Assembly: GCA_021399345.1 (NCBI GenBank)
Contig: JAAFKI010000009.1
Span: 1 to 34,695, forward strand
From: Candidatus Heimdallarchaeota archaeon
GTDB lineage: Archaea > Asgardarchaeota > Heimdallarchaeia > Heimdallarchaeales > Heimdallarchaeaceae
Length of the DNA: 34,695 nucleotides
Reading direction: 5' to 3'
Part shown: positions 2,039 to 22,496 of the stretch, one piece after another
Layout: each line of letters opens with the position of its first letter
How positions within the stretch are numbered: position 1 is the first letter of the stretch
Translations under genes and position numbers: made by a program
Notes under the pieces: model-generated
What the model saw: only the letters and a program-made list of their open reading frames with translations
Database searches by the model: none
What the model was told of the DNA's origin: nothing

Positions 2039-2059
2039 TCTATTCCTCAATAGTAGTAT

Positions 2060-3124: not shown

Positions 3125-3133
3125 ATTCTTAAT

Positions 3134-5485: not shown

Positions 5486-6081
5486 GTACTCTTCCTCCTC
5501 ATATCTTTCCTAAACTGAATGAAGTCAATAATTTTGGATCCTAGGTTTTCAAAAGCACTGCTGACGTTCTCATCAGTTTTAGCAGATGTTTCAAAGTATT
5601 CCACTTTAAAACCTCTTTCTTTGTATTTCTTGTTCAAAGTTTGAACATAAGTTGAAACTCTAGCTCTAATTTTCTCACGAGTGGCTGGTGATATTAAATC
5701 CATTTTGTTTCCTAAAATAGAGAATGGAACAATTCCTCTCTCGGTTCCTGTTTCTAATTCTGCAATCCATTGATCTAACTTCTTTAAAGTGGTCAATTTC
5801 TTCGCATCAAACACCATCAAAGCCCCCAAAGCACCTTTATAATACATCATGCGAAGGTTCTCAAAGATTTTTTGTCCCGCAATATCCCATATTTGGAAAA
5901 GTACGGAATAATCTTGAACTTTTTTGGGTAGAGAGGCAAAATCAGCACCAATAGTTTGGAGATGTTCTGTGATGAAACCATCACCTAGATATGAACGACG
6001 TAAACTTGTCTTTCCAACCCCAGCTTCACCGGCAAGTATAATCTTCAGGTATAATTTTTGTCCATAACTCAAAATATTCAC
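5482..6081 (-). CDS. Rab/Ras-like small GTPase
   Basis: A 199-residue G-domain protein with every signature motif: P-loop GEAGVGKTS (18-26), switch-I Thr43 in QTIGADF, WDIAGQ (65-70) with the catalytic Gln70, NKMD (125-128) and ETSAK (164-168). The order and spacing match the Ras/Rab/Arf-like superfamily common in Asgard archaea. The C-terminus ends in basic residues (RKDMRRKST) without a Cys prenylation motif, and no N-terminal Gly for myristoylation is seen, so membrane attachment would need a partner. The called start is GTG 6081; TTG 6072 is an alternative because GTGA could act as its ribosome site. It sits 30 bases after the CPBP-like gene and overlaps the HEAT gene, so the three probably share an mRNA. 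WDIAGQ in place of WDTAGQ is a minor variant. Confidence 0.93.
   Translation of the reverse strand: MNILSYGQKLYLKIILAGEAGVGKTSLRRSYLGDGFITEHLQTIGADFASLPKKVQDYSVLFQIWDIAGQKIFENLRMMYYKGALGALMVFDAKKLTTLKKLDQWIAELETGTERGIVPFSILGNKMDLISPATREKIRARVSTYVQTLNKKYKERGFKVEYFETSAKTDENVSSAFENLGSKIIDFIQFRKDMRRKST
5494..5499 (-). promoter_or_regulatory. Ribosome binding site for the TTG-started HEAT gene
   Basis: AGGAGG on the minus strand, inside the last GTPase codons, 8 bases before TTG 5485. It decides this start, because no nearby in-frame ATG has a comparable site. Confidence 0.7.
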
Positions 6082-6111
6082 TTCTTCTAGTCTGAAAACT
6101 GTTTGTAAATT

Positions 6112-7833
6112 TCAGTGTGCTATATTAGATAATAAATTACCTAATTTAAAGATTTTAGGAAGTACTAGTGAGAGAGTATTAAGAACTAAAATTGAACCAA
6201 AAAACATACTAGAAAGCATTAGAAAAGGATTATTGAGGATAACACCGTTACTAGAAACGAAAATCAAACCTAGTATTAGTTCTGTAGCTATATTGATGAA
6301 AATAGCAGTATGAATTCCAAATTTACAAAAAGCATATCCACAGATTAATCCAACAATAAAGGTGTAGATCATCTTTCCTATATTCCAACCATATATAGGT
6401 TGGACATAGGCATAAGCGATAGAAGAGAAAATCATTAGTATACCAGTTAGTCTATCTACTTTTCCCCACCCTCCTGTCAAATAGAAAAGAAGATTTCCTG
6501 GTTGCCTGCTTTTGATATATCTTACAAGGATAGAAGTTTCATCAACATTCTTAGATTTCGTTCTTGAGCGATATTCAACCAATTTCTGTATAAGATAGAT
6601 AAGACCTCTTATCAGAAAAAGTGGTAATCCAAAAAGAAGTAATCTGAACATGATTTCTTCTCCAAAACCCTCCCAAAATGACTGAGTTAGATGAACAAAA
6701 CTAGTATAGTTCCTTCCATCTGACAAAATAGATCCAAGAACACCTGTATTTTGAAAAATGCTAATGAAGAACAAAGTAGAAAAAAAACTTAGTAATATAA
6801 GCTTCATAACTGATACAGAATTGCTGTTACTTACTCTAGAAAACACCATTTCATATCTTTTTGGTGTTTTAGATTCAATAAGATGTGATGGTACGAAATC
6901 AGATGTTTTAATTTCAGGATTAAGTATTTGAAAAGCTATATCTTCTTGGGTTTTTTCTGCCTTCTTTTCTTTAAACTTCTCAAGATTAGTTTTAATATTC
7001 TCTTCAGTATTTCTCTTTTTCAGAAGAAGAATGGAGAAAGTTAAGCAAATTAAAAGAATTGACAAAATAGCTTGAGTAAGTTTCCAATCAAAAACGATAT
7101 TTGAAGGCAATGATGTCTTCTTGAAAAACTCTTGAGCTAAACCATTTATCGGATCAAAATGATACCAAAAGTTTGGGTAAAAGAAATCTAAACTTGCATC
7201 AGCAACTGAAGCTTTAATTGAAGGATAAAGAATGATAATAATTAGATTACCAACCACAATTACACCAGCTAATCCAATCGCTAGAAAAACGTTGAATTTT
7301 CCTAAATTCTGTTTTAGTTGCTTTGGAAACAAGCCTAAACCATACCTGTCACTTTTACTTTCTATGGGGGTTCTCTTCAGCAATTTACAAATCTTATTCT
7401 CAATTCTAGGAAATAGAAAAACTCCTAGTATTGTACTGATTACAACCAGCTGTAGATTCTCTAGAAATATAGATGAAATTCGAACGAAGATATGCAATTC
7501 TGGAAGATTCAGAAAGGAAACAATAATAGAATAGATTAAAAGAATAAGAAATATTGGCAAAAAAACTATTATAATGTGATTAAGAGAATTGTCTTCAGAT
7601 TCTAGATTCTTTTTGATGAACCATTTTCTTAAGGACCAACCATACAAGAAAAAAAGTATTATTATACCTATAGAGAGAAAAATTGAATTTTTAGAATTAA
7701 CTCCATAAAGTGTAGAATCTGAATTTGCTTCATTCACAGGTAAATACAAATCGAAAACTAAACGGATAATGGAAAAAGAAAATACACTAACAGAAAAAAG
7801 CAAAGAATCTAGAAGAAAACGTCTTTTTTGCAT
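6112..7833 (-). CDS. CPBP (CAAX protease-like) multi-pass membrane protein with altered active site
   Basis: A 573-residue protein with about ten or more hydrophobic helices. The C-terminal half carries the CPBP / type II CAAX protease hallmark GEEIMFR (E392, E393, R397). It then has the family's helix pair, SSIAYAYVQP near 470-479 and GLICGYAFCKFG... near 495-515. In active members these helices supply His residues (FxxxH, and HxxxN/D). By my alignment those positions here are Gln478 and Asn514, so the glutamic-protease site looks incomplete. The N-terminal ~190 residues hold further membrane helices with no recognised family, and a charged cytosolic loop lies at about 275-330. It heads the probable operon with the small GTPase and HEAT protein, so it may be a membrane receptor or anchor for them (inference). 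ATG 7833 is about 50 bases after a TATATAAAC-like box near 7885. Confidence 0.7.
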   Translation of the reverse strand: MQKRRFLLDSLLFSVSVFSFSIIRLVFDLYLPVNEANSDSTLYGVNSKNSIFLSIGIIILFFLYGWSLRKWFIKKNLESEDNSLNHIIIVFLPIFLILLIYSIIVSFLNLPELHIFVRISSIFLENLQLVVISTILGVFLFPRIENKICKLLKRTPIESKSDRYGLGLFPKQLKQNLGKFNVFLAIGLAGVIVVGNLIIIILYPSIKASVADASLDFFYPNFWYHFDPINGLAQEFFKKTSLPSNIVFDWKLTQAILSILLICLTFSILLLKKRNTEENIKTNLEKFKEKKAEKTQEDIAFQILNPEIKTSDFVPSHLIESKTPKRYEMVFSRVSNSNSVSVMKLILLSFFSTLFFISIFQNTGVLGSILSDGRNYTSFVHLTQSFWEGFGEEIMFRLLLFGLPLFLIRGLIYLIQKLVEYRSRTKSKNVDETSILVRYIKSRQPGNLLFYLTGGWGKVDRLTGILMIFSSIAYAYVQPIYGWNIGKMIYTFIVGLICGYAFCKFGIHTAIFINIATELILGLIFVSSNGVILNNPFLMLSSMFFGSILVLNTLSLVLPKIFKLGNLLSNIAH

Positions 7834-7982
7834 TTTAATCTACTCGTATAGAAACCTTTCTTGTGAAACAGAAGTCTAGATGTTTATATACATTTATGCT
7901 TCAAAAAATAGGAAAAATTTTTAAGCGTGTTTAATGCCATTTCTATCAATTACTCATAAGCGTAATAATGAAAACTAGTTAC

Positions 7983-7988
7983 AGGTGA
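7983..7988 (+). promoter_or_regulatory. Alba ribosome binding site (AGGTGA)
   Basis: AGGTGA lies 5 bases before ATG 7994. It contains the GTG that a longest-frame caller would take as start. It excludes that longer start. Confidence 0.7.
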
Positions 7989-7993
7989 ATAAA

Positions 7994-8392
7994 ATGAGTG
8001 AAGAAGAAACAATTGAAAAAGAAGAACCTAAGAAAAAAGCTCCTGCTAAGAAGAAAGCTCCTGCTAAGAAGAAAGCTCCTGCCAAAGAAGATACAACAAA
8101 GAAACCTGAGAAACAACAAAGCCAAATAATTTACATCGGCAAGAAAGACACCATAAGTTATGTCTTAGTTGCAGTTACAATACTCAACAAGAGTGACATG
8201 TGTTCAATTCAAGCTCGGGGAAGACAGATTTCAAAGGCCGTAGATATTGCAGAAATTACCAGAAGAAAGTTCTTACAAGACATGATAGAAGTAGATGATG
8301 TTATAATCGGTTCTGAAGAGATAATTTCTGATGAAGAAGGAATACCACCTAAGACAGTCTCAACAATAGATATAATATTGAAGAGGAAATAA
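7994..8392 (+). CDS. albA: Alba chromatin protein with lysine-rich N-terminal tail
   Basis: The 132-residue product has two parts. Residues 44-132 are a complete Alba domain: IIYIGKKDTISYVLVAV, then IQARGRQISKAVDIAEITRRKF, and the closing strand STIDIILKRK. Lys50 and Lys51 align with the Lys16/Lys17 DNA-contact pair of Sulfolobus Alba. Residues 1-43 form an added tail: an acidic start, then three KKAPAK units, resembling histone H1 tails. Alba normally has about 90-97 residues. Alba dimers coat and bridge DNA and also bind RNA. The start is ATG 7994, because the in-frame GTG at 7985 lies within the AGGTGA ribosome site (7983-7988). The gene is convergent with the topoisomerase VI operon, whose B subunit has a similar tail. 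Confidence 0.93.
   Translation: MSEEETIEKEEPKKKAPAKKKAPAKKKAPAKEDTTKKPEKQQSQIIYIGKKDTISYVLVAVTILNKSDMCSIQARGRQISKAVDIAEITRRKFLQDMIEVDDVIIGSEEIISDEEGIPPKTVSTIDIILKRK
8036..8089 (+). repeat. Three 18-bp tandem units encoding KAPAKK
   Basis: The unit AAAGCTCCTGCTAAGAAG occurs at 8036-8053 and 8054-8071. A third copy at 8072-8089 has a few substitutions. In frame, it builds the lysine-rich tail of Alba. The near-identity suggests recent slippage expansion. Confidence 0.85.
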
Positions 8393-8411
8393 ACTTCGTC
8401 TACACAACTTG

Positions 8412-8439
8412 AGTAAAAACCTTTCTCACATTTTTTACT
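8412..8439. terminator. Hairpin with T-run between convergent Alba and topVIA genes
   Basis: AGTAAAAA (8412-8419) pairs with TTTTTACT (8432-8439) across a 12-base loop. The right arm sits in a run of six T on the plus strand, and the minus strand reads five T through the other arm. The position, 20 bases after Alba and 37 bases after the topVIA stop, suits a bidirectional terminator. Confidence 0.45.
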
Positions 8440-8475
8440 TATATTGAATATTAGGGCTTTTATCCTCTTATTGGT

Positions 8476-9885
8476 TCAGATAAAATCTCCCGTTTCTATT
8501 TTTTGAGGTAAATAGAAATTTGTAATATATTGAGGATCTCTTGCATTTAAGGCTTGTATTTCTGCTTTGTAGCCACTAGCAAGTAATATTTGCAGTTGTT
8601 CTTCCCATCTTGGTTTTCGTTTCACAAACTCTTCTTCCAGCATTAATTTAGATCTGTGGATGTCTTTAGAAGTTAGCTTAAGTAAAGCACTTCTGGGAAT
8701 GTCAAAACCACTTTCTTGAGATAAATCACTTGGAAGTAATCCCAACCATTTGATATTAGGAACAGCTAAATGGCTGGATTCAAAACTTAACGCTTTACTA
8801 CCAACACTGTAAACTCTCATAATCTCAAAACCGTAAGGATCGGCATCCATTATTGCGAATATAGGGATGCTCAAATCATCATTTATTTTCTTAAGGAACT
8901 GTCTTGTAGCTATATCCGGTTGGCCTTTAGCAGTTATTAAAATACTTGGAACATAATCGTAGAAATGATCTTCAGCTAAACGATTGAAAACAGCATCTTT
9001 CTCTATAACCAAACACATTTCTGCATCAGTATCGAAATCGTCTATATCATCAATATTAGGAGAGATAGCTTTCCCAGCACCAATTGCTCTGCAGTCAATT
9101 AAATCTCCTTTTTCCTTGAAGCTAATTCTTCCAACAACTATTCCTTTGGAGGATGCACTCACATTAAGAGAAGACCGAGTTACTTGAAGCATTGCACCGA
9201 GATCTTCAACTAAGGAATCTGAAACAGACTGTTTTTCAAAGGAGTTAACATCCATATAGAAAATATCTCTTTTTGTACTGTGAATGTCTCTAGAAAGAAT
9301 ATTATGTATTATTTTCATAATTATGGTCATTTGTTCAACAGAACTGACAGAAGAAAGGCTTCTAAATTGTCGTTCAATCATCTGTCTACCAATTAACACA
9401 AGTTCTTGTTCTTCATCAAAACCTACATTTGATCCACTTCTAGAAGGAATGTGAAAAGATGCATCATAGGGATTAGCCAAAGCTTGTTTTAGAAAATCTA
9501 AAGCATACTCAACAAGCAAATTATTTGTATCTTGAGATGACTTTGTTTCTACATGAGTTACACCATAAGGCATAAAATATTCCTTTTTCTTTAGAAGATC
9601 TTTCTTTAAAGCTTTAACATTATCCAAAGTAACAGTTTTTTTAACACTTACACTCATTGTAGTTTTTTCTAAAGGATATCTAGATAATTTCCTGGTTGGT
9701 TCAAGTAGATACCATTTTCTGCGACTTCTCAGAAATAGAACGAAAGACCCTCTCTTTAAATCAAAAGTATCTCTCGCCCATCCATACATTTCTCTTGTAA
9801 CAATTTCTTTACTAAAACCTACTGCACGCTCTGTTGCAGGTAAAACTGTTGAATTTGAAAAAATAAAATTACTCATTTCTGTCAT
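8476..9885 (-). CDS. top6A: DNA topoisomerase VI subunit A (Spo11-like) with N-terminal extension
   Basis: A 469-residue catalytic subunit of type IIB topoisomerase VI, which makes the transient double-strand break. The winged-helix 5Y-CAP domain contains STKRDIFYMD with the catalytic Tyr210. The Toprim domain shows VIEKD (Glu295) and DADPYG (Asp347, Asp349), the Mg-binding acidic residues, so the enzyme looks intact. Relatives are usually about 370-390 residues with the Tyr near 100-106. Here about 100 extra residues (1 to ~110) precede it, basic and of unknown fold. ATG 9885 overlaps the subunit B stop as ATGA, with a GGTGGAG ribosome site at 9890-9896. That arrangement couples translation and would favour equal output of the two subunits. 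Confidence 0.95.
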   Translation of the reverse strand: MTEMSNFIFSNSTVLPATERAVGFSKEIVTREMYGWARDTFDLKRGSFVLFLRSRRKWYLLEPTRKLSRYPLEKTTMSVSVKKTVTLDNVKALKKDLLKKKEYFMPYGVTHVETKSSQDTNNLLVEYALDFLKQALANPYDASFHIPSRSGSNVGFDEEQELVLIGRQMIERQFRSLSSVSSVEQMTIIMKIIHNILSRDIHSTKRDIFYMDVNSFEKQSVSDSLVEDLGAMLQVTRSSLNVSASSKGIVVGRISFKEKGDLIDCRAIGAGKAISPNIDDIDDFDTDAEMCLVIEKDAVFNRLAEDHFYDYVPSILITAKGQPDIATRQFLKKINDDLSIPIFAIMDADPYGFEIMRVYSVGSKALSFESSHLAVPNIKWLGLLPSDLSQESGFDIPRSALLKLTSKDIHRSKLMLEEEFVKRKPRWEEQLQILLASGYKAEIQALNARDPQYITNFYLPQKIETGDFI

Positions 9886-12800
9886 TTATCTCCACCCTTT
9901 GAATTAGTTGATGATGTTTTACTCGTCTTTGAAGACGTTTTCTTCTCCCCAGACCTAGTAGCTAAATCTAATAAGGTAGTTTGTTTTGTGGAAGCCTTAG
10001 TTGGTGCTTTCTTCGGTGTCATTTTTGTAACTGGCGGTTTCATAGTAGTAGTTTTGGGGATTGCTTTTGCAACAGGTTTAGCTGTAGCAGGTTTCTTAGC
10101 AGGAGCTTTCTTAGCAGGCTTCTTAGTAGGCTTCTTAGTAGGCTTCTTAGTAGGCTTCTTAGTAGGTGGTTTGGTAGCAGGCTTAGCTTTTATTGTCTTT
10201 ATTTTCTTCAGGGGTAGTTTACTTTTGATTCTCTTAATAGCGATATAACTAAGGTTGGTTTTTCCATCAAGAGTTGATGATGGGTATACTGCAAATTCTC
10301 TAAAGGTTGTTATGCCTAATTGTCTAATCTGTTTAACAACTTCAGCATCAACATCGATTTCGTTAATTGTCTTATTCAGATGCTTCTTTAAATCAGATAC
10401 TTGCTGTAATTTCAAAACAGGTGATTTCTTTTTATCTTCGGAAGGAAACATTATTTCTTGGAGTGATTCAAAGCCCGAATTCTGTAATGAAACTACAGCT
10501 GATGCTTCTAAATAAGGCAATGTATCTTTTACAAGAATTTGATCTTTTTGGGCCAATTTAATTGATTGGTCAGTTAATGTTGATAGATAACTCTTAACCT
10601 GTCTATCAGTAATTTTGATGATTTTTGCCAAATCTTTTGTGTTGTATGCATAAACCCCCCACAAGTTGAAAATACCCTTTTCATACATTGCAAAAACGCT
10701 ACCAGGATTATCTCTAATCATATCTGTCAAATAGTAGACTGGAGAATCAAGTATTCGGTTTATTTTTACCAAGATTGAACTTCTTATTTTAGATGAACTG
10801 GCAAGAATTTCATCGGATATGTTTAGATGAGAAATTGTAGAATACCCAGTTCTAATTAATTGTTTCCTTGAATTTTCGTCAATAAAGCTAACTTTCGAAA
10901 TAGGATATAAACTAGATAAGAGTTGATTAATACTGATGAAATTAAGCTGCTTAATTATGGTTTGCATTGATGTTTGTTGTTTTTCAGTTAAACTTGACTT
11001 GATTTGTTTATTAATATCTGTAGGTAAAACTAGATCTAATACTTGATGGATATTCAAATCTCTTAGCTTCTTAAGGAGAGTTTGATCAAACGTGAATATT
11101 GATAAAGGTGCCCTCAAAGTCGATAGAATCTGTTCGAATTCTTGCTCCAAATTTTGAGCAGATGTTATTTTAACATAATTAATAAGGGATCCAAAAGTTC
11201 TAATTTTCTTCCTTTTTAGAAACTGCAAGTATTCAGTCGTTTTAAAGAAACTACTTAATCTGCTTTGTTCATTGCTTACCGATTGAGTTATCTTATCAAA
11301 TTTCAACACAGATAAAATATCTGAACATAATGCTTTAGATTCTACTTTCTGAGTAGTTTTGCAGAAGGTTAGAAGATCATACACATTGCTCAGTTTCAAC
11401 CTAGTTACTTCTTCTGATTTTCTTTTGTCCTGTATTATACTTGGAAGTACTGTCAAATCAGTTTCCATAACTTTACTTATCTTATTGCAAATAGTCAGAA
11501 CCTTAGAATCACCCTTCTTACTCTGCTCAAGAAAGACTAAAGCCTCTTCTATTGATTTGATATTGCTATTATTGAGAGTATTCACCTCAGTTGTCGTAAG
11601 AAGGGAAGATGGGAATGATGTCATGTTCTGCGATAATTCTTGTAATAAACTTAAAGAGAGGTTTCGAACATTACGCTGCACATTTTTATCAGAAATCTGG
11701 TCGTATAGTTGTTTTCGGGATAACAATAGAAGCTCACTTATCTTCTTATATTTAGTAGAGGATACTTGATGAATAGAATCAGCGGTTAGTTTAGTTAAGA
11801 TTACAGGAGAGCGATTTAGAGAGGAGAAAAGTAATTCAATTGTTGGTTTTATTTTGTCATGTAATTTACGCCAAATTTCATCAAACATTTGTGCATTATA
11901 TTCTTTAAGAAGAAGTAAATATTCAATTGACATTTCTGGACAATGGGATTTCTTTGCACTTGGGTCAATTTTCAAAATGGTACATAATTGTGTCCCTCTG
12001 GAGAAAAAGAAATCTGCTGTTGATACGATTAATTCTTTCTGTTTTTTAGTTATAGCTAGGTTTTCTGTACTATTAATGAGGAAGAGTAACTCAAGTATTG
12101 TTAATGATTCATCGAGTTTAGGTTCATAATTCTTGATATCGAATGTTTGAATGAAATCCATTTTTGGTTTAATTGTCTTAGGTATAGCTTTGTCGGAGTA
12201 GAGGTTTTCTACTAGTTGATCATATGTTTTGTAACCTATATTGTTTAATTTTTCTATATCCTGTTGGGAAAAAATAATATTGGATTTCAAGGAAGGTTCC
12301 CTAATCATATTCTCTACGTTGAATGAACTCCTTATTTTAGGGATATCACTCTGGGGAATTGAAAGAAAAGATGAAAGATCCTTGTCTGAGAGTTTTAAAA
12401 GATCTGTTACAGTATCATTCGATGAGTGAAGTTTCTTCCAAACTTTAAGAGAGATTTTAGGGACCATAATTAGTTTTACAGGTGTTGTAAGTGTCCTCTG
12501 AACCTTATTGATTAAAGTTCTAGAAACGCCATAATCTTCTGATTCAATGGCATAAAGAATTTCATCTATAGTTTGATAATATTCACTAATTTCTTTGATT
12601 GTTTCAGCATCAAATACGCCTAGGGATGAAATATCAGGTCGTTTTCTAATCTGGCTTTTGATTTTACTTAATGTCAATGTTGAAAGTAATGCGAGAACCT
12701 TAGAACCTGTTGGTTTTGCCGAAAACTCGTTCCAATAAGTTTGAGATTTGATAAGAATATCTATAATTAGGAAATTGTTATTCTTGTTAAGGTTCTTAAC

Positions 12801-15800
12801 ATCGCTTGTAGTCAATTTCGACAAAGCTGATAGAGGATGTTTAAGAGTTCTGAGAATTTTCTTGTTAGGTTCTGAGATCTTTTCATAATTCTTATACAAT
12901 TCTGAAAGAAACTCATTTAGCTGCTTAATTTTCTTCTTAGGAATAGATTTAGAAAGTGTAATTAATTCTGTCTCGGAAAAGAGCTGAGCAGCTGTAATAT
13001 ATTCTTTGTCCAATTGTTCATCTACTGAGGCAAACTCTTGTAGAAAAGTAATAATTGTCTTAGTTTCAACCTCATCAACCGAACTAAGAAGGTCTTGGAT
13101 ACTGAAGATTCCTTTGTCATAATATTGCTTCTCGATTTCTGAAATAGTCAATTTGGTTATGTTTGGATAATAGAGTATAGATGTTTCCAGAATTGTTTCA
13201 ATTTTATCTTTGATCTTCTTGAGCTTATTCTCTGAAATTAACCAAGAATAAGCTGAATATTCGTTCAAATCAGATATACTATAAATTCCAATTGACTTTA
13301 GGAAGTCTTTGTCAGTATTAGATAATAAGAAGAACTCACGATCAACTGATTCTATATTTGCATCTATTTTTTGTTTTAATTCTTCATAAATGATTGAATC
13401 TATTGTGGTTGTTATTTTTGATATACTCATTTTTGTTTGAGTTGCAATAGTTTTTGGTGAAACTACTAATAAATCAGATATTGTAAAAATACCTGAACGC
13501 TTCAATCTATTATACTCAGTAGATTCTAAATCTAGAAATCGTAAATTAGCCAATAGATAAGGTGCAAATTTTGAAAACAACTCTTTATCTGTCTTAAAAT
13601 TCGCAGAAGTTAGCAAAGAGGTATAAGAATAATATCCTCTTTTCTGAAGATCTTGTTCAGTTTCAGATAGTGATTTAACAAATCCTACTTCTGAAATTGT
13701 CTTAATTGCTTTTAGGGAAGGAGTAATTTCATCTCGTATTTTCTTCGGATGATCCTTGAAATAAATCAATAAGTCTTCAATGATTTGAAAATTATTACTC
13801 AAACAGTATTCAATTGTTTCATTTGTTAAATTGGGTAAAATACTAACGCTTCTACCTAATCTGTCTCTTAATTCAAGAAGATCAGTGAGTTTAATTTGGC
13901 CTTTAGAAGTCAAATACGTATCAGGAACATAAAGAAGATGATCCACCGTAGATAATCCTGTCTGTAACATCGAAGCTGTAACTGATTTGGCCAACCCTAG
14001 TTCTTCAACCGACATACCAAACTTTTGGATGCCGTATAACTGTTTAATCAGAAAAGTAGGATCAGTTTGCTGATTGGATATCAACTTCTTAAGACTAGAT
14101 GGCCATTTTTCTTGAGGTATTTCTAACAAATCAGTATATGTTAATATTTTTTCGTCAACTAGTTGTTCAATATTCTTTCTGCTCATTTTCAGAACTTTAC
14201 CAATTAATGTAATAGGAGTTTGAAGTATAGAGACTAGTTCTCTGACACTTTGCATCTCTTCTTCAGTTAGAGGAAGCTCGTTTATCTGAAGGTGTGCAGC
14301 CTGTGTAAGTGAAACACACCCGTGTTCCATCAAAACCCTCTTTATTTTATCATTTAGTTTTCCAATAAGTTGTATATCTAATCCAACTAGTTTTGCGTTT
14401 GATTCAAGAACTTCTAAATCAATGTTTAGCTTTATTTCCTCTATTTTTTCTTTACTTACATTCATGAATTGGGATAAATAAGAAACAGGCATAAATAAGA
14501 ACTGAAATACATTTCTTACACCTTTTTGTTTCAATTTCTTAACATTAGATACAGATAAGCCATCTATGGATGCAACACTGAAATTCTTCAGAGAGAGTAG
14601 TATTGACCTTAACTCCTCATACACAGAATGATTTTCAATAATGAGACTATCCAAAGAAAGCAGTTCATCCAAATATAGTACTTTGGCTGTTTTTAGCTTC
14701 CTCAAAAGTTTTTGATCTTTGATGAGATTTAAGTCAGTAAGTTTAAGCGACCATTCTGGAGGTTTAATTTTGAAGATATTCTCATTGACCACTTCTTTAA
14801 ATTTAGAATGAAACTGCTCAGAGAAATATCTAGTATCAGTTGATTGTTTATCATCATCCAGCATTAAGAGAGCAGAAATGATGTTGTTTACCTTCTTATC
14901 TCTAAAAACAGTTAAGTCTTCTAGTTGGAGATCTGATTGATCTACTAACCAGGTAACAGGTTTGAATAAGTTTGATGTAGCAGTACTTAGAAGATTTTTC
15001 TCCTTATTTGTTAATTCAAACAATGGATGGTGCATAAAATCAAAAAGGAATAGAGCGGTAGTTAGTCCATAGGTCTTGAATTTTCCGCGCATTTCTTTAG
15101 GTAAACTAAGTTTTTGTTCGATATATGGGGAAAATGTTTCTGACATTCTAACACTTAGATTGAAGCTGCGTTGAAACTCTCTGATAGCTCTAACTGCTTC
15201 TCTTGGAATATCTTTGAGATCTTGTATATTTGTTGAGATAAGTTCAATCACATGTTTAATCCCCATATTCCAAAGAACTGCTTTGGTTTCAATATCAAAA
15301 TATGAAAGAGAAAGAGTACTCAAGCTCAAGAAACTCACTAACTGCTCAACAAATGATATATTGGTGATTTTTTCTATTCTTTCAGTTTCAGTAAATTGCA
15401 ATAAATGTTCAGGAACAAACCCAAACAAATCCTCAACAGTTTTCTTTGATGGTTCAAAATAAAGATCCCTTAAAATGTTGAGAATTGGTTCATTGAGTAG
15501 CAGTTCAGTTCCCTTTATCAGAGTGAAATTACCCCTTCTAACCTCATTGGTTTCTTTGCTAAATTTCCCACCTAAGGCATTCTTTAATTCTGAGTCATTA
15601 GTGCATAAGAAATCGATAACTCTAAGAATACCCATTTGCGATAATTTTATTTTTGTTTCTGGTGATAACTCCTTAATGCGGTAAATTGATACGTTACAGC
15701 TGTTAAGGAAGTCTCTCAGAACATTATCAGAAACATTAGCAATTGTAAATGCCTGGTAATATTGACTATAGACATCTTGAACCAGATCCCTATCAGATTT

Positions 15801-18800
15801 TAGTAGATAGTTCACAGTTGATTTGGAAAGAACAGGAAAGTCTGTCAGTTTTACTCCCTTCTTTTCTATTTCTTCAAGAAGATTTTCAGAGTTTATCTTA
15901 TCTAGGTACTTTCGTACTTCTGTTTCTTCCATGTCCAGAATTATTGCAATGGTTGAAACATCTTCAGTAATAAATGAAAGTATATCTCCAACTCCAGAAT
16001 AAACTAATTTCTGTACTTGTTGATTATTCAATCCAAGGAAGGCAACTGATGAAAGATATAACTGAACATCACGAAATACATCAAGCTTAACTAAGTGAGG
16101 ATGAGAATCTCTTAATTCAGACATTCTAGAATTGAAATCTTGAATTGAGTTTATACCCAATTGCTTAATTTTCTCAAGATAATCCTCCTCTATCGAAGGT
16201 AACAAATCTAAAGATAAAGCGGTTTCTGCTCTCTTCTCTGCGACTTCATCTAAGGAGAGAATATCTAGTGCATGAAATTCCTTGTAAATTGGATTCTGTG
16301 TTATATGAAATAATTCTTTTTTGTTTAATAAAGCTAAATCTATAACAGAATTAATGTCATAAAATTCTAGCCTTTTAATCTCATCAGAGGCCAAGAAACC
16401 AACAAATCTTATTGAGCCTGAGAGAATTTCCTTCACTTTTGAATAGTTTTCAGCAGGTAAAACTGAAGACACGTTCTGTGTTTCAGCTGAGTAGTAAAGT
16501 GATTCAATATCAAGAATACCTATCTTCTTTAAGGATTCAATATGTTTATCCGTTATGAGTACAGAAGCAACAATGTCATGGGTTTGAGCTTTTTTAAATG
16601 ATTGAATTAATGAATAATCAAGATTATCTTGAATTTCTCTAATATATCTTTGAGGTATTCCTGTTATTTCTGAAATTGTTTTAACTGGTGTTGAGAAGAA
16701 GTCTATTAATGTGTTAATTGAGGATTTACTTAGTTTTAAAGCCAATTCTCTTGGTAATCCCATTGAGGAAATTGGAACAGCCAAATCAGCAACCATGTTA
16801 TTTAAAGAATCAACTTCCTGCAATTTATTATAAAATGGTGCTAAAGCTGAATGTTCAACTAAGTCAATGTCAAATACATCACCAATTTTAGTATTTTTGT
16901 ACTCCTCTCTTCTAATCTTCTTGATTCTATTGAAAAATGGAGTTATTCTGATAGGAAGTTCGAGAAGAGCTCGAATTAGTGTTAAATTATAATTATCAGT
17001 AAGAGAGTGTTTATCTTTTGAGAGTAGAAGTGAAATAACTTTTTTGTCAGTTACAACATCTGAAAGTGTTTTTTCTTCAAAATCTTGAACTATATTCCTG
17101 AAGAATGAAGAATTGTAAACGGATGATGGCAATTTTGCAAAATAATGGAATGCGCGCATTTCTAGCATTTTAGAGGAATAAGTAGAAATTGACCTATAAA
17201 GAACAGGATCTTTTATTTCTTCATCAGGAAGGAAGAGGAGTTGGTGCACATATTTAATATTATTATGTTCCCATACCTCTAGCGAATATTCTGATATTTC
17301 AGTGAAGATTCTTAATGGCAAATCTAGCACCTTTTTAACAGCTGATACTTTTGACCACAAATCTGGGTTTGATGGATAGAATTCTTCCTCTACGACATAG
17401 TATATTTCTTGAATTGTCTGAAATCTTTCAAATTGGATAATTGAATCACGGCTTAACTGTCTTTGTTCTAATTTGTCAAATAACTTTGTTTCTGCAGCAA
17501 ATATTCCCCTATCTTCATATGAAGCTTGTATGGTCTGAGCAGTTAATGAATTTTTTAATGCATTTAGATCTTTAGATGGGATTTCCAGCAATTTAGTTAA
17601 TTTCTGATTCGATGTTAAAATGAAATCAGCTATGGTTGGAATTTTAATTTCTCTTAAAATCTCTGTCTGTTCAAATGTTAGAGAGGGAATGTAGTAACTT
17701 GGCAGTGTAAAAGTACCTAAAATATCAGATAATGCTAATCCTCGCTTAATATTTTCAAAACGTTCATCTGGGATTCCAGTTTTTTCCATTAAATTCTCTG
17801 GTGAGATAAGCATGAATCCTAGTAGTGTTGTAATTTCAACTTTCTTCAGGATTTCAATAAGTTCCTTATCTAGCATATCGGAGATATATTTCAGTGGTAA
17901 GTTCAATACTTGTTTGAATGATTTAATTATCTTCCATGGAAGTTCAGAAACGGTCCATTCACGTTCAGAAGTGGAGAAATAAATGTCTTCAATTGTAACT
18001 AAATTATATTCTTCTAGGATATCAACAATATGTGGCTTAAAGATATCTAGCTCTGAAAGATCTGTTCCAGTGTCACTTATTCTTAAGTTTCTTTGCATTA
18101 ATGCTGCTTCTTTTGGACTAATACCCAAGACAGACTCAAGAATATCCTTCTTAACGATCAGTAAATCAACAATTCTAGAAATTCCGCTATTTCTAAGTGT
18201 ATTCAATTGATCGGTAGAAAGAGTAGAGATTTGAATTTCATCAATTTCCTTTATCGTTTCAGTTTCTTCATCCTGCACTTCTTTCTTAACAACTTTCTCC
18301 CAAGCTACTAATGTGAGTGGTGATCGTAATAGTTTTCTAAACTTATCAATTACATTCCAATGGACTAAAGAAGCAGAAAAAGTTAAGGGGTGGGATAAAT
18401 AGAAAATCTTGTCAACTGAATCATAACCAGCTAGAATCAGTGATTCAATTTCATGAGTGGAAAACCGTTCGGATTCCTCATATTCAAAGGAAATTAAGGA
18501 TTTTAACCGACTTCTTTCTCCCTTGATAAAGAAACTAGTTCCTTTCTGCTCAATTTTGAAATCTTTGAATATATTATTAATTCCATCTTCAGTTTTGTTA
18601 AGAATAGATCCCAATTCTTTTGTTGAGTATTCAAATAATTGATGCATAGCTATAATATTTTCTGTTCGTAAATCTTCATATTCTTGTAAAGTAAGATTAC
18701 CAATTCTCGATATTGGTAAACTTAAAGCTCTTTCAAACTCATCATATTCACTAATCAATAGAACTTGTTTGTTTAAGTCACTTGTTTCCTCAATATCTCG

Positions 18801-21800
18801 ATTCTTTATCATATGATAGAGTTCTAAAATAATTTTTCTATGGGAAGCTGTTGATAGCTCAGATTCAATGATTTCAGGGATAAGGTCTAGAAATTGTCTG
18901 ATGGTAATAATGTTTCTTACATTTAATCTTAGAAGAGCTTCTTTCACTTCCCCTAGTTTCTTGGAGTTCTTAGAGAATAATTGTGCAAGTTCTATAATTT
19001 CAAGCTGGGAAAGCTTGCTCAAGTGATCAATCTTCTTCCATAATCCTTGTGATAAACTAACTTTTTCTGAGGGGTAGAGATAAAATAAATCTTGAAGGGT
19101 TTCATTAGTTTCTCCAAAATAAGAGATTAACCGTGGAAATAGACTGTTCAACTGAGATAGAGGTTTACCGAATGTTTTTCTATTAATCTCAATTTCAGCA
19201 AGAGAAACAACATCTTTCATTGCTTCTATTTCTTCTATTTTGTAACCCAATATACTTGCTAATTCTTCATCAGGCCAGATCAGAAAGCGACCCAAGCAGT
19301 TAATCCCCACTTCTTTCAACAAGTAGGATGATTTTCTAAGTTGTGGGAACGAGAATATGATAGGTGTTCTGAGAATATTTGCTATTTCAAAATATTTCTT
19401 TTTATTCTCTGCTGATAATAAATAAGATTCAGCTGAATTGAAGAACAACTCCTCTAGAACAATAATCCCACATTCTTTTAGTATTTCTTCGTGTCCCAAC
19501 CACTTTGGTAATGGTGTTCCTAGGGTTTTCTTGATCTGGTCAACTTCTCTCTTCTTTAGACCCATTTTTCTTAGTTGCGGTGAAGAATAAGAGAGAAATA
19601 TTGAAGAATTAAAAATCTGGTTTCGGTGCAGTTCTGTTTCGACATTACTAGGTATAATCTTAATATGGCTTGAATTGTGACCTTTTTCAGATATTTGCAG
19701 AGAAAACAAAATTGTGAATTTTGTTTCTTTCATAAGTAGTTCTGCGAGATCGATTAATTTCTTGTCTTGAATTTCTTCAGCTGCAAAATATAACAGCTGA
19801 GCTAAAGATTTGACGCCCTTGGCTGCCAATGATTTAATCATTAAAGCTTCATCATTTTTGAGCTCCTTACTCTCAATAAACTCAAAAGCTGAAAGATTGA
19901 TTGATGGAGATTGTTTAACAAGGAGTTTTAGATAGGTTGAATACAAAATCCTTTCCATTTCTTTAACTTGGACAAGATCATCTGTAGAAGTGTTAATGAA
20001 GCTCTCAATTGTTCTAATTTTTCTCCTATGAAAAGCATTTTTTGTATATCCATCTGTCCAATCGGGAGTCATTTTAGTTATGTTTGTGGCTTTGAAAGTA
20101 GGAAACTTATTTGACATTTTAATGAATACTTCTTTTAAGTAATCAATGAATATCGCAGTTATTTCCTGTTGATAGTTAATCCCATCGGGAAGTTGTGTTT
20201 GATAAATAAATTCTTCAACAGTTAAATCAGCTGCTAGAATTTCATTTGATAGTTTTTTGAAGACTTTGAAAGGTGGGAAGAGATGTTCAATTTTCAATTG
20301 ACCTTTAGCAGTTAAAGAATCAGCAACAAATTTGCTTTTAGGTGAAGTCTTTGAACCATCATTCTTTCTGTTCTGGAGTAAAAGTTGATTAATTAACTCA
20401 TCTTTCTTGTTCTCAAACAATTTCTCTAAAAGACCAGAGACTGTTTTTAATTTTGCAGATTCAGTAGCTAAATAATGGTAACTATTTTGAATCCATCTTC
20501 GATTTAGAGCATCTTTTAATGAAATAGAATTTTTGTCAAATCGTTTTTCTACAGCTCTTGAAACAAAGATTTTAGAGTCAAATTGAGGACTTAGTCCTTC
20601 CTTATCTAACTCAAAAATTGTTCTTAGTTTAATATTGTAAATAGATTTTTCATCAAGTGTTAAAATAGTCATTAAAACCTTATTTGGTGTTAGTAAGAAA
20701 TCAGAAACTGACAAGATATTCTTGTTCTTTAATATATTTTGAGTTGATGTAGAACACCAAATATTTAGACCGAAAAGTCTTTGTCCTAGAGGCATGAATA
20801 ACTTTGCTTTTTTAGAAGATCCATGAGCTAAAGAAGACGCAATTCTATTTTTCTCAAATCGAAAATCAGCCATCCCAATACCTTCATCCTCAATAATCTG
20901 AGAAAGATTTTCTACAATTATAGGTGCAGATTTGACGAATCGTGATAGTCTAGCATGTTCTCTTCGCCTTCTTTTAGCCCTACCCAAGAAGGTCTTTAAT
21001 CTTCTTCCAAGTTGTTGCAGAGCTAATCGTATTTCTTCTTCAATCTCTGGAACAATGGAGATATATTCTTTACTTGTCTCTGGAAAAGGTATTTTTGTAC
21101 TAACTACTGAAACTGTAACAGCTAAAGGATCTGATTGTCTAGTAAGCCCATATTCATTCCATCTTATGGAAGAAACAACATGACTAATAACATCATTACC
21201 TGCACCAAAAATCAAAGGGATTCTGTTTGCATACCGGTAAATTATTTTATTATCTTGAACATTGGTACCTCGTTGTTGAGAAGCTTCTGTAACACCCCCC
21301 CCATAACCTATGGCTGCTTCTACAACAAACGGATGTCCAGAATAAGCTTTTGGTGGTCTAGAAATAGCTTCAGCAAATTTAGGATTTAATTCTTTTTCAA
21401 GACCTCTCTTCAATCTCCCTGCACCGAGAGGAGAAAGTGCAGTCCCTTTTGGTGGATCAAACTGAAAAACTCTATCACGTTTTCGTTTTACTTCTTTTGC
21501 TTCTTGATAGGCTTTCACAAATCCCTCATGTACAATTCTACGTATTTCTTTTGAAGTTAACTCGTTAGGATGTTTATTGGGATCTATTTCTAATAATTGA
21601 AAGAAATCTTCAGCAATTTCTTTGGTTACTCCCATAAATTGATTTGCAAGAAAATCTTTGAGTTTTTTATCATTATTCGCGCTCAATTCTGCTTTGAACT
21701 GTGTGATATCACACCCATATGGATGAATCTTGACAACTTGAGGAGGTGGAGGCATGTCATCTACTACACTCTCAAAAATGAATTCATCAAATTCACCCTC

Positions 21801-22496
21801 TTTATCACCTGGTACTTTTACTTGGAAAGAGGAATAAGGCGTGATTATCGCTAGTTGTCTAAAGTATTCTCTAACGCTGTTCTTGGCGAGATTCCATGCA
21901 CCAGTAAATGTAATTGAAATTTCAGTTCCTGCTTCTTCAAGATAACCCTCATCCCCTGGCAGAAATTCTCGCTGCTCCATAATTATGGGTTCATTTTTCT
22001 CAAGATTGATCATTAAATGCATTTCATGTGTTATATCATCCATGAAATATCTTGATCTAATTTTAGCTGGGAGGTCAACAGAAGACATGGAATACAATAA
22101 ACACATCTTGGCTCCTAAACCAAAACGTCCTCGTGTCTGAATAACACCATACTTAGTTCCTGTGAGAACTCTACCGAAAAGGTCAGCAATAAGATGTCCA
22201 GGAACACCTGTACCATTATCTGTACAGGTAAGTTGTAAGAAGTCTAGGTGTTTCTCTAATTTCTTATATTGTTTAACATCAAGAAGTTCATTTATTTCTC
22301 TACTAGATAATTTTCTTAAATCAATTGAGATGTTAGGATTTATCCCTCTGTTTTCTGCAGCATCTAAACCATTTTCAACTAATTCGCGTATGCTAGTAAA
22401 CACAGCTCGCATAGAATTTCCAAAGCCAGCAATTGCTCTATTTTCGTTGAAAAAAGAAGCGGCAGACATCTTCTTAGTAACTGAATTTTCAGACAC
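9882..22496 (-). CDS. top6B: Giant DNA topoisomerase VI subunit B fused to a ~3,500-residue helix-hairpin-helix-like array and basic tail
   Basis: One open frame of 4204 codons; usual TopVI-B is about 530-620 residues. Residues 1-540 are a canonical B subunit. The Bergerat/GHKL ATPase has RELVENGLDA (37-46), DNGTGVPG (93-100) and GRFGLGAK (123-130). An H2TH region lies at ~260-345. The transducer has STKIPF (466-471) with the switch Lys468, then a long basic helix up to ~535. From ~560 to ~4090 run repeats of the form L-x3-G-[IV]-x-[ST]-[IV]-x-[DE]-[FL]-L, then a helix, a 'gi' turn and a second helix. This resembles the RpoA-CTD/DUF4332 class of helix-hairpin-helix. Residues ~4095-4204 are Lys/Pro/Ala/Thr-rich. 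The start is GTG 22496, with AAGAGGTAAC at 22501-22510 as ribosome site; ATG at codon 10 is an alternative. No frameshift or stop interrupts it. Confidence 0.95.
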   Translation of the reverse strand: MSENSVTKKMSAASFFNENRAIAGFGNSMRAVFTSIRELVENGLDAAENRGINPNISIDLRKLSSREINELLDVKQYKKLEKHLDFLQLTCTDNGTGVPGHLIADLFGRVLTGTKYGVIQTRGRFGLGAKMCLLYSMSSVDLPAKIRSRYFMDDITHEMHLMINLEKNEPIIMEQREFLPGDEGYLEEAGTEISITFTGAWNLAKNSVREYFRQLAIITPYSSFQVKVPGDKEGEFDEFIFESVVDDMPPPPQVVKIHPYGCDITQFKAELSANNDKKLKDFLANQFMGVTKEIAEDFFQLLEIDPNKHPNELTSKEIRRIVHEGFVKAYQEAKEVKRKRDRVFQFDPPKGTALSPLGAGRLKRGLEKELNPKFAEAISRPPKAYSGHPFVVEAAIGYGGGVTEASQQRGTNVQDNKIIYRYANRIPLIFGAGNDVISHVVSSIRWNEYGLTRQSDPLAVTVSVVSTKIPFPETSKEYISIVPEIEEEIRLALQQLGRRLKTFLGRAKRRRREHARLSRFVKSAPIIVENLSQIIEDEGIGMADFRFEKNRIASSLAHGSSKKAKLFMPLGQRLFGLNIWCSTSTQNILKNKNILSVSDFLLTPNKVLMTILTLDEKSIYNIKLRTIFELDKEGLSPQFDSKIFVSRAVEKRFDKNSISLKDALNRRWIQNSYHYLATESAKLKTVSGLLEKLFENKKDELINQLLLQNRKNDGSKTSPKSKFVADSLTAKGQLKIEHLFPPFKVFKKLSNEILAADLTVEEFIYQTQLPDGINYQQEITAIFIDYLKEVFIKMSNKFPTFKATNITKMTPDWTDGYTKNAFHRRKIRTIESFINTSTDDLVQVKEMERILYSTYLKLLVKQSPSINLSAFEFIESKELKNDEALMIKSLAAKGVKSLAQLLYFAAEEIQDKKLIDLAELLMKETKFTILFSLQISEKGHNSSHIKIIPSNVETELHRNQIFNSSIFLSYSSPQLRKMGLKKREVDQIKKTLGTPLPKWLGHEEILKECGIIVLEELFFNSAESYLLSAENKKKYFEIANILRTPIIFSFPQLRKSSYLLKEVGINCLGRFLIWPDEELASILGYKIEEIEAMKDVVSLAEIEINRKTFGKPLSQLNSLFPRLISYFGETNETLQDLFYLYPSEKVSLSQGLWKKIDHLSKLSQLEIIELAQLFSKNSKKLGEVKEALLRLNVRNIITIRQFLDLIPEIIESELSTASHRKIILELYHMIKNRDIEETSDLNKQVLLISEYDEFERALSLPISRIGNLTLQEYEDLRTENIIAMHQLFEYSTKELGSILNKTEDGINNIFKDFKIEQKGTSFFIKGERSRLKSLISFEYEESERFSTHEIESLILAGYDSVDKIFYLSHPLTFSASLVHWNVIDKFRKLLRSPLTLVAWEKVVKKEVQDEETETIKEIDEIQISTLSTDQLNTLRNSGISRIVDLLIVKKDILESVLGISPKEAALMQRNLRISDTGTDLSELDIFKPHIVDILEEYNLVTIEDIYFSTSEREWTVSELPWKIIKSFKQVLNLPLKYISDMLDKELIEILKKVEITTLLGFMLISPENLMEKTGIPDERFENIKRGLALSDILGTFTLPSYYIPSLTFEQTEILREIKIPTIADFILTSNQKLTKLLEIPSKDLNALKNSLTAQTIQASYEDRGIFAAETKLFDKLEQRQLSRDSIIQFERFQTIQEIYYVVEEEFYPSNPDLWSKVSAVKKVLDLPLRIFTEISEYSLEVWEHNNIKYVHQLLFLPDEEIKDPVLYRSISTYSSKMLEMRAFHYFAKLPSSVYNSSFFRNIVQDFEEKTLSDVVTDKKVISLLLSKDKHSLTDNYNLTLIRALLELPIRITPFFNRIKKIRREEYKNTKIGDVFDIDLVEHSALAPFYNKLQEVDSLNNMVADLAVPISSMGLPRELALKLSKSSINTLIDFFSTPVKTISEITGIPQRYIREIQDNLDYSLIQSFKKAQTHDIVASVLITDKHIESLKKIGILDIESLYYSAETQNVSSVLPAENYSKVKEILSGSIRFVGFLASDEIKRLEFYDINSVIDLALLNKKELFHITQNPIYKEFHALDILSLDEVAEKRAETALSLDLLPSIEEDYLEKIKQLGINSIQDFNSRMSELRDSHPHLVKLDVFRDVQLYLSSVAFLGLNNQQVQKLVYSGVGDILSFITEDVSTIAIILDMEETEVRKYLDKINSENLLEEIEKKGVKLTDFPVLSKSTVNYLLKSDRDLVQDVYSQYYQAFTIANVSDNVLRDFLNSCNVSIYRIKELSPETKIKLSQMGILRVIDFLCTNDSELKNALGGKFSKETNEVRRGNFTLIKGTELLLNEPILNILRDLYFEPSKKTVEDLFGFVPEHLLQFTETERIEKITNISFVEQLVSFLSLSTLSLSYFDIETKAVLWNMGIKHVIELISTNIQDLKDIPREAVRAIREFQRSFNLSVRMSETFSPYIEQKLSLPKEMRGKFKTYGLTTALFLFDFMHHPLFELTNKEKNLLSTATSNLFKPVTWLVDQSDLQLEDLTVFRDKKVNNIISALLMLDDDKQSTDTRYFSEQFHSKFKEVVNENIFKIKPPEWSLKLTDLNLIKDQKLLRKLKTAKVLYLDELLSLDSLIIENHSVYEELRSILLSLKNFSVASIDGLSVSNVKKLKQKGVRNVFQFLFMPVSYLSQFMNVSKEKIEEIKLNIDLEVLESNAKLVGLDIQLIGKLNDKIKRVLMEHGCVSLTQAAHLQINELPLTEEEMQSVRELVSILQTPITLIGKVLKMSRKNIEQLVDEKILTYTDLLEIPQEKWPSSLKKLISNQQTDPTFLIKQLYGIQKFGMSVEELGLAKSVTASMLQTGLSTVDHLLYVPDTYLTSKGQIKLTDLLELRDRLGRSVSILPNLTNETIEYCLSNNFQIIEDLLIYFKDHPKKIRDEITPSLKAIKTISEVGFVKSLSETEQDLQKRGYYSYTSLLTSANFKTDKELFSKFAPYLLANLRFLDLESTEYNRLKRSGIFTISDLLVVSPKTIATQTKMSISKITTTIDSIIYEELKQKIDANIESVDREFFLLSNTDKDFLKSIGIYSISDLNEYSAYSWLISENKLKKIKDKIETILETSILYYPNITKLTISEIEKQYYDKGIFSIQDLLSSVDEVETKTIITFLQEFASVDEQLDKEYITAAQLFSETELITLSKSIPKKKIKQLNEFLSELYKNYEKISEPNKKILRTLKHPLSALSKLTTSDVKNLNKNNNFLIIDILIKSQTYWNEFSAKPTGSKVLALLSTLTLSKIKSQIRKRPDISSLGVFDAETIKEISEYYQTIDEILYAIESEDYGVSRTLINKVQRTLTTPVKLIMVPKISLKVWKKLHSSNDTVTDLLKLSDKDLSSFLSIPQSDIPKIRSSFNVENMIREPSLKSNIIFSQQDIEKLNNIGYKTYDQLVENLYSDKAIPKTIKPKMDFIQTFDIKNYEPKLDESLTILELLFLINSTENLAITKKQKELIVSTADFFFSRGTQLCTILKIDPSAKKSHCPEMSIEYLLLLKEYNAQMFDEIWRKLHDKIKPTIELLFSSLNRSPVILTKLTADSIHQVSSTKYKKISELLLLSRKQLYDQISDKNVQRNVRNLSLSLLQELSQNMTSFPSSLLTTTEVNTLNNSNIKSIEEALVFLEQSKKGDSKVLTICNKISKVMETDLTVLPSIIQDKRKSEEVTRLKLSNVYDLLTFCKTTQKVESKALCSDILSVLKFDKITQSVSNEQSRLSSFFKTTEYLQFLKRKKIRTFGSLINYVKITSAQNLEQEFEQILSTLRAPLSIFTFDQTLLKKLRDLNIHQVLDLVLPTDINKQIKSSLTEKQQTSMQTIIKQLNFISINQLLSSLYPISKVSFIDENSRKQLIRTGYSTISHLNISDEILASSSKIRSSILVKINRILDSPVYYLTDMIRDNPGSVFAMYEKGIFNLWGVYAYNTKDLAKIIKITDRQVKSYLSTLTDQSIKLAQKDQILVKDTLPYLEASAVVSLQNSGFESLQEIMFPSEDKKKSPVLKLQQVSDLKKHLNKTINEIDVDAEVVKQIRQLGITTFREFAVYPSSTLDGKTNLSYIAIKRIKSKLPLKKIKTIKAKPATKPPTKKPTKKPTKKPTKKPAKKAPAKKPATAKPVAKAIPKTTTMKPPVTKMTPKKAPTKASTKQTTLLDLATRSGEKKTSSKTSKTSSTNSKGGDK
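10117..10164 (-). repeat. Four perfect 12-bp tandem repeats encoding PTKK units
   Basis: GGCTTCTTAGTA (plus strand) is repeated four times without mismatch, flanked by degenerate copies with GCA in place of GTA. It encodes the (KPTK)n core of the B-subunit C-terminal tail. Perfect copies next to imperfect ones suggest recent replication slippage, and length is likely to vary between strains. Confidence 0.9.
10229..20819 (-). repeat. Protein-level array of helix-hairpin-helix-like modules inside top6B
   Basis: Recognisable short modules include GINCLGRFL (~1062), GISRIVDLL (~1437), VEITTLLGFM (~1551), IKIPTIADFI (~1614), GINSIQDF (~2111), GILRVIDFL (~2288), GIKHVIELI (~2411), GVRNVFQFL (~2659), GIFTISDLL (~3001), GIYSISDL (~3069), GIFSIQDLL (~3128), GIFNLWGVY (~3940), GFESLQEIM (~4008) and GITTFREFA (~4061). 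Longer modules with [ILV]-x-[SDE]-[IL]-[FY]-Y and a following W/L-x-[KR]-[IV]...LP-[LVI] segment alternate with them, for example near 1357, 1499, 1691, 1990 and 3306. DNA-level identity between copies is low, so the array is old. Confidence 0.7.

Follow-up and report, generated by a model that had tools for sequence, protein, structure and literature searches.

Nearly all archaea have topoisomerase VI (TopVI), an enzyme to which the decatenation of chromosomes is ascribed (PMC9348778). The Methanosarcina mazei enzyme acts preferentially as a decatenase, with a bias towards crossings close to 90 degrees (PMC8837201), and C-terminal extensions of the B subunit have been proposed to go with gyrase in archaea (PMC9348778). 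For the (HhH)2 units of topoisomerase V, a role as a processivity factor that embraces DNA has been proposed (PMC9489208). Giant genes of Asgard archaea have also been described, in a paper whose available main text does not contain the word "topoisomerase" (PMC8813620).

Here we describe a TopVI B subunit whose core is followed, in a single reading frame, by a long array of predicted (HhH)2 units. The gene lies in a stretch of 34,695 nucleotides from a member of the Heimdallarchaeaceae (assembly GCA_021399345.1, contig JAAFKI010000009.1, positions 1 to 34,695), the whole of which we refer to as the window. The features of the locus, in window positions, are the following.

9882..22496, minus strand: top6B fusion gene, 4204 codons, GTG start at 22496, stop at 9882
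20877..22496, minus strand: TopVI-B core (GHKL ATPase, H2TH, transducer), residues 1-540, from TIGR01052, PF09239, a PDB match and invariant motifs
10200..20756, minus strand: predicted (HhH)2 array, residues ~581-4099, with 51 profile matches and ~6 units placed in gaps, roughly 57 in all
19287..20813, minus strand: proximal array, residues 562-1070, with 17 of 27 conserved basic (K/R) array positions
15831..18950, minus strand: acidic middle block, residues 1183-2222, net charge ~-43 as a hand sum of unit charges
16197..18296, minus strand: AlphaFold2-modelled tile, residues 1401-2100, pLDDT 87.2, pTM 0.78
9885..10187, minus strand: lysine/proline/alanine-rich tail, last 90 residues net +23
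9960..9986, minus strand: tail motif KQTTLLDLA, PIP-like without the aromatic pair
8476..9885, minus strand: top6A, 469 aa, with TP6A_N and Toprim domains (PF04406, PF21180)

Judging from its sequence, the window protein is a topoisomerase VI B subunit with a complete core. Residues 7-538 matched the NCBIfam TopVI-B equivalog NF003218 (2e-136, 455.7 bits against a cut-off of 274), and the core scored above the cut-off of a second equivalog, TIGR01052 (389.3 against 380.7 bits), matched the Pfam transducer PF09239 at 5.9e-53 and aligned by sequence with PDB entry 2zbk_B at 4.4e-85. Residues E38, N42, D93, G95, G97, G126 and K468, which we take to be the GHKL ATP-binding motifs and the transducer lysine, were invariant in a nine-row alignment that included the window protein; the H2TH domain presumably lies within the core as indicated above. 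Translation of the frame gave 4204 residues with zero internal stops, corresponding to an estimated mass of ~470 kDa. Both the intact core motifs in the first ~540 residues and the frame open for ~3,650 residues beyond them had been pointed out in a first-pass annotation of this DNA, and the present matches agree with it.

The start of top6A overlaps the stop of top6B by 4 nt, and its product scored below the cut-offs of all six NCBIfam A-type models listed. Most NCBIfam TopVI-A models begin to match it only after ~110 residues. We surveyed 58 genomes of the class, grouped into families f1 to f7, of which a scan of named genomes identified f1 as Heimdallarchaeaceae and f5 as Hodarchaeales. In 25 of the 26 complete array-bearing frames, top6A directly follows top6B, the exception being G044, beside an assembly gap. 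One top6A, whole or fragmented, was present in 45 of the 49 f1-f6 genomes and none was found in the other four, while f7 genomes gave 1-3 top6A matches and mostly carry two TopVI sets. Elsewhere in the window, overlapping genes encode a HEAT-repeat protein and a Ras-family GTPase (3134-6081, minus strand), and a divergent tubulin/FtsZ-family protein lies at 30152-31291 on the plus strand (PF00091 1.9e-10; TIGR00065 far below cut-off).

The degenerate repeats noted in the first pass proved real, with the difference that the unit is a two-hairpin (HhH)2 module of which the earlier motif covers the first hairpin. The strict motif with glycine occurred 10 times in residues 561-4095 (shuffle mean 0.165, maximum 2). 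An iterated repeat profile identified 27 units at i-E <0.1 in the window protein and yielded the consensus LSPEEIEKLKKNGITTIIDFLLTPSEELSKILGLSEEEIEEIKKS, in which two helix-hairpin-helix motifs occupy 45 residues. Profile-profile comparison gave 51 matches of at least 15 columns between residues 582 and 4094, with a probability of at least 90 in 15, at least 50 in 26 and at least 10 in 36 of them. Reversed columns gave five weak matches, all with a probability below 10, and no match was obtained with three shuffles of the columns. The figure of 57 units combines the 51 matches with unit boundaries that we set in the gaps. Spacing was 50-70 residues in 37 of 50 cases; in places values close to 67 and 54 take turns, pointing to a possible super-repeat of two units and ~121 residues.

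Searched against Pfam, the whole window protein matched RAD51D_N at 1.8e-19 and RNA_pol_A_CTD at 1.2e-5, with HHH_5 below cut-off, and the repeat consensus alone gave RAD51D_N at 2.9e-5 and the RpoA C-terminal domain at 3.7e-4, both below cut-offs. The f7 relative L060 matched HHH_5 at 4.6e-27 in five stretches and DUF4332 at 2.8e-8. The AlphaFold2 model covers 700 of the ~3,500 array residues of the window protein and contains RAD51-N-terminal-like units, in line with the HhH-like structure expected earlier. The nearest solved folds are RAD51-type N-terminal domains, that of RAD51C superposing over 64 residues at 2.3 A, and in a Foldseek search topoisomerase V appeared in the second row with a non-significant E of 0.56. 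A whole-protein model of an f7 relative had low confidence in its array (mean pLDDT 67, pTM 0.48). The (HhH)2 fold and the solenoid packing of the array are predictions from the 700-residue tile.

The array closes near residue 4099 and is followed by a lysine-rich tail of ~100 residues, with short tandem repeats within 10085-10177. Such a tail was found in f1, in f3, in two of three complete f4 proteins, in Borrarchaeum yapensis and in Sifarchaeum marinoarchaea, and was lacking in the two f5 (Hodarchaeales) proteins checked. The net charge of the last 90 residues is +27 in G003, +28 in G025 and +14 in G034, against +4 and +5 in two f5 proteins and +10 in two f7 proteins. The motif [KR]Q.TL[LMD][DE]h is kept in all 12 complete f1 tails, amid variable low-complexity sequence, and a KQTTLLDL-type motif was absent from the f3, f4 and f5 tails seen. 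The PIP-box consensus is Q..[ILM]..[FWY][FWY]; KQTTLLDLA lacks its aromatic pair, as does every f1 tail seen, and a clamp-binding role is therefore only a lead. The FEN1 of the window's genome ends in KQKSLDAFFG, and Q..L..FF was found at the FEN1 end in 7/7 genomes looked at. The 2,980-aa homologue P0074, labelled Hodarchaeales, ends in RQKSLNAFQKRS, with RQKSLNAFQ near the end. An Alba-family protein encoded convergently with top6A (7985-8392, plus strand, PF01918 3.8e-13) has a lysine/alanine/proline-rich N-terminal tail akin in style to that of TopVI-B.

A frame of this length could result from an assembly or gene-calling artefact that fused two genes. The closed chromosome of Ca. Heimdallarchaeum endolithica PR6, which belongs to f1 (G003, CP084167.1), carries the frame unbroken over 4305 codons, and its assembly is based on Nanopore data (PMC8813620). 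Altogether, 26 array-bearing frames are complete, one of them (G044) ending beside an assembly gap. Using an array-only protein as query against the 58 class genomes, we retrieved TopVI-B frames or nine core-less array pieces, of which eight begin at a contig edge and one at an N gap. Among the protein homologues listed (at least 13 with f1, at least 29 with f7 and at least 32 with f5 arrays as queries), P0072 (1,585 aa) and P0075 (1,528 aa) were the sole ones without PF09239. These two array-only records are related to the Hodarchaeales array and could be either split genes or contig-edge pieces, or true stand-alone arrays. In an f4 MAG (G027, contig C4, locus L099), the 629-codon core frame (4957-6843) and the 3,018-codon array frame (6753-15806) differ and overlap at 6753-6843, close to residue 540, which may reflect a sequencing error or a real split. 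The frames of G043 and G044 are broken at N gaps, and a contig-edge array piece (L168, G011 contig C114) has an in-frame stop. Most of the outcomes named at the outset as speaking against a fusion were not borne out: the frame runs through without a break in the closed chromosome, though it changes close to residue 540 in G027; array-only sequences exist as pieces at contig edges or an N gap and as two protein records; and the modelled tile does contain HhH-like units. Set against the complete frames, the colinearity of divergent arrays and their low dN/dS (see below), the cases in G027, G011, G043 and G044 do not sustain the artefact reading, which we treat as refuted for the family.

The TopVI-B core was present in 53 of the 58 class genomes. 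Complete frames, measured from stop to stop, span 4174-4305 codons in f1, 3573 in f3, 3473-3496 in f4 (2194 in G030), 2312-2324 in f5 and 1118-1123 in f7; those of f2 and f6 reach contig ends. The part distal to the core measures ~560 residues in f7, ~1,750 in Hodarchaeales and Borrarchaeum, and 2,900-3,760 in Heimdallarchaeaceae and kin, with 1,630 in one small genome. G030 (L098), a 1.4-Mb genome that is 80% complete, has a shortened array, its protein measuring 2,175 residues counted from the start of the core, and no lysine-rich tail; gyrA was not found in this genome. Two Borrarchaeum proteins and that of Sifarchaeum marinoarchaea extend 2272-2279 residues from the core start, with arrays of ~1,730 residues. 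The short loci of Sifarchaeum subterraneum, Njord-, Hermod- and Thorarchaeota and Thermoproteota comprise 439-578 residues, in which the repeat profile found no match except one in L126. In three f7 genomes (G050, G055 and G053; loci L064, L065 and L066), the array form of ~1,110 aa coexists with a second, array-free TopVI-B (frames of 498-512 aa) that has its own A subunit.

Across the phylum, 216 of 227 genomes had a TopVI-B match. Among the matches listed, which extend to ~1e-58 and leave out weaker ones, including those of f18 and f19 (perhaps Lokiarchaeia), frames longer than ~700 codons were confined to f1-f7 and f26, the latter inferred from its lengths to be the Borrarchaeum group, and other Asgard frames measured 431-671 codons. 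Array length varies little inside a family but differs from one family to another.

A PMSF tree was built from 51 cores, those of 48 among the 76 named loci plus three f7 short forms; in it the 31 array carriers formed one clade with support of 100/99. This agrees with the first-pass suggestion that an HhH-type solenoid was fused to TopVI-B in this lineage. The f7 sequences lie on one side of the array clade, and the array-free, short TopVI-B of Sifarchaeum subterraneum (L118) adjoins it on a long branch. Arrays were compared by BLASTP without composition correction. All three Hodarchaeales arrays tested were colinear with the window array at E 1e-62 to 1e-66 (for example, L122 3-1730 aligns with window residues 20-1774 at E 1e-63), and those of Borrarchaeum and Sifarchaeum matched it at 1e-36 to 1e-42. 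Among the latter, the L114 array is colinear with that of the window, two Borrarchaeum-window alignments are in another register, and all three are colinear with L086. The f7 array bears only a weak resemblance to the others (best E 1e-12), and its shared origin therefore rests on the core tree and on position. From these data we infer growth of the array from f7-like through Hodarchaeales-like to Heimdallarchaeaceae-like lengths; because the tree is rooted at its midpoint, the same series could be read as reduction.

The array is under purifying selection. Its dN/dS was 0.049-0.134 in 10 of 11 genome pairs and that of the core 0.033-0.104 in 9 of 11, with several dS values above 1 and close to saturation, and dS not computable for the array in G045/G037 and for the core in G007/G006 and G045/G037. 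In the nearest pair, array dN/dS ranged from 0.04 to 0.21 per 350 codons, and 79 array positions were invariant between the window protein and 11 f1-f4 representatives. A neutral ratchet, in which units duplicate and are retained without a dedicated function, would fit the degenerate units and the great differences in length between families. However, the low dN/dS, the invariant positions and the steady length within f1, f5 and f7, even with the short G030 in f4, make it very improbable.

We then considered whether the array could be linked to gyrase. gyrA was found in 47 of the 58 class genomes, all of them among the 49 genomes of f1-f6 (f1 22/23, f2 1/1, f3 3/3, f4 7/8, f5 12/12, f6 2/2), and in 0/9 of f7. 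It lies just ahead of top6B in 10 of the 11 f5 genomes in which the core was matched, and in one of two f6 genomes (L101, L102, L105, L107-L110, L115, L122, L129 and L127), which suggests a gyrA-top6B-top6A operon. Split gyrA matches were seen near position 115/116 in G010, G012, G013, G017, G033 and G041, near 50-66 in G003 and at both sites in G023; each lies within one long open frame (939-1726 aa), a pattern that inteins close to the active site of GyrA would produce.

Such a distribution would agree with the array being an answer to gyrase, a C-terminal extension that keeps TopVI off gyrase's work, which is a role proposed for TopVI-B C-terminal domains in archaea with gyrase. The near-complete presence of gyrA in f1-f6 against its absence from the short-array f7, its position ahead of top6B, the shortened array of G030, itself without a gyrA match, and the extensions reported from gyrase-encoding clades (PMC9348778) all point this way. 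Within the class, however, they amount to one phylogenetic contrast, and array-bearing TopVI-B also occurs where gyrA was not seen: in all nine f7 genomes, and in three carriers of ~1,730-residue arrays (two Borrarchaeum and Sifarchaeum marinoarchaea) among 13 genomes outside the class, where gyrA was found in 0/13, their completeness not being given. An extension occurring only together with gyrase was thus not what we observed, and we consider this reading quite improbable.

The GhG hairpin marks DNA-binding HhH motifs. We counted one in the window array against 0.89 in the null, which is not above chance, and 0-1 in the nine f1-f5 arrays tested against nulls of 0.17-1.66. By contrast, four f7 arrays had five each against nulls of 0.45-0.73, and counts exceeded the null in L114 (3 vs 0.24) and G047 (2 vs 0.42); L103 had 1 (null 0.38) and G048 0 (null 0.12). 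A net basic charge, another sign of DNA-binding HhH arrays, was not seen in the window array, whose net charge is 0. The other arrays had +35 (G003, 3,671 residues), -45 (G025), -87 (G034), -49 (G045), -21 (G042), -13 (G050) and +3 (G051), so that five of the six long arrays tested were neutral or negative. The charge is unevenly distributed, with hand-summed unit charges of ~+11 for residues 581-1117 and +32 for 3175-4099 on either side of the acidic block. That conserved K/R are more numerous close to the core is due in part to the higher overall conservation of this region. From the layout of charge and of conserved K/R we therefore picture the window protein as basic in a collar next to the core and again at its far end, with an acidic or neutral stretch in between. 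The near-chance GhG counts in f1-f5 and the charge of the long arrays do not support the earlier proposal that the whole solenoid holds DNA; for DNA binding along its entire length, the support is only partial.

Considering the processivity role proposed for (HhH)2 units in topoisomerase V, decatenation by TopVI and this charge layout together, we favour a reading in which TopVI sits on a long tethering or scaffold arm that keeps the enzyme at chromosomal crossings, although we would put it at somewhat less than an even chance. The basic core-proximal units, together with the basic tail, would keep hold of chromosomal DNA, and the mostly neutral or acidic middle would serve as a stiff spacer and docking surface. 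With two arms per A2B2 heterotetramer, the local concentration of DNA crossings might be increased, or the enzyme might be anchored at catenane junctions, and the sole TopVI found in the cells would thereby act as a tethered decatenase. The array may have started as a small, f7-like DNA-binding (HhH)2 block, most of whose duplicated units would have lost contact with DNA. The frame change at the core-array junction of G027 speaks against such an arm, and since Hodarchaeales lack the lysine-rich tail, anchoring by the tail could at most be part of the explanation in that group.

A neutral array would fit protein docking alone just as well. The array could mainly be a scaffold docking to replication or chromatin proteins, with KQTTLLDL contacting the sliding clamp or something similar, and we regard this as a real but less probable alternative to the tether. 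RAD51-type N-terminal domains, the nearest solved folds, bind proteins; the tail motif is conserved throughout the complete f1 tails, and RQKSLNAFQ in P0074 resembles the FEN1 terminus. On the other hand, the f1 motif lacks the aromatic pair, and the f3, f4 and f5 tails seen are without the motif. In a variant of the tether reading that is speculative and rather unlikely, the two ~57-unit arms would bridge sister or looped DNA in an SMC-like manner, the proximal collar and the tail gripping different DNA segments and the captured crossing being resolved; stepwise growth of the arm from ~9 through ~28 to ~57 units (estimated from length), within the same bridging reading, is speculative to the same degree. 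Finally, the whole array could be a DNA clamp, with successive (HhH)2 units gripping DNA for processivity and long-range holding. The unit fold shared with topoisomerase V, even though the Foldseek match is not significant, the GhG hairpins retained in f7 and above their nulls in L114 and G047, and the processivity factor proposed for topoisomerase V (PMC9489208) are consistent with a clamp. It is nevertheless distinctly unlikely in view of the near-chance hairpin counts in f1-f5, the acidic middle block and the net charges of 0 to -87 in all long arrays tested other than G003.

TopVI is kin to the Spo11 machinery, and Heimdallarchaeia are often placed nearest to eukaryotes. A B subunit of this mass would alter the reach and binding of the Heimdallarchaeia enzyme, and the natural series of arm lengths (0, ~9, ~28 and ~57 units, estimated from length) offers a means to study the effect of tethering on decatenation, with a bearing on chromosome handling in archaea near the origin of eukaryotes. 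We found no description of an HhH array on TopVI-B in the open-licence papers searched, and the available parts of PMC8185306, PMC11302465, PMC9348778, PMC8813620, PMC12395588, PMC9489208 and PMC8837201 do not mention one.

To our knowledge, RAD51-type N-terminal domains and the RpoA C-terminal domain occur once per protein and never as a solenoid. Canonical TopVI, as in Saccharolobus shibatae and M. mazei, resembles the present enzyme in the sequence and fold of the core and in the adjoining A subunit. It has no array, and in group II Euryarchaeota such as M. mazei it carries a ~100-residue Ig-like C-terminal extension instead (PMC9348778). The TopVI-B extensions of gyrase-encoding archaea, from a study that included Asgard archaea, likewise place a lineage-specific domain after the transducer, but that domain is globular (PMC9348778), whereas the extension described here runs to thousands of residues and is not tied to gyrase. 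Topoisomerase V of Methanopyrus kandleri (type IC) likewise carries (HhH)2 units in tandem, 12 in that case, behind its topoisomerase part (PMC9489208). Identity with that enzyme is ruled out by the TopVI nature of the catalytic part: topoisomerase V has an unrelated catalytic domain, 12 rather than ~57 units, and AP-lyase domains amid its units.
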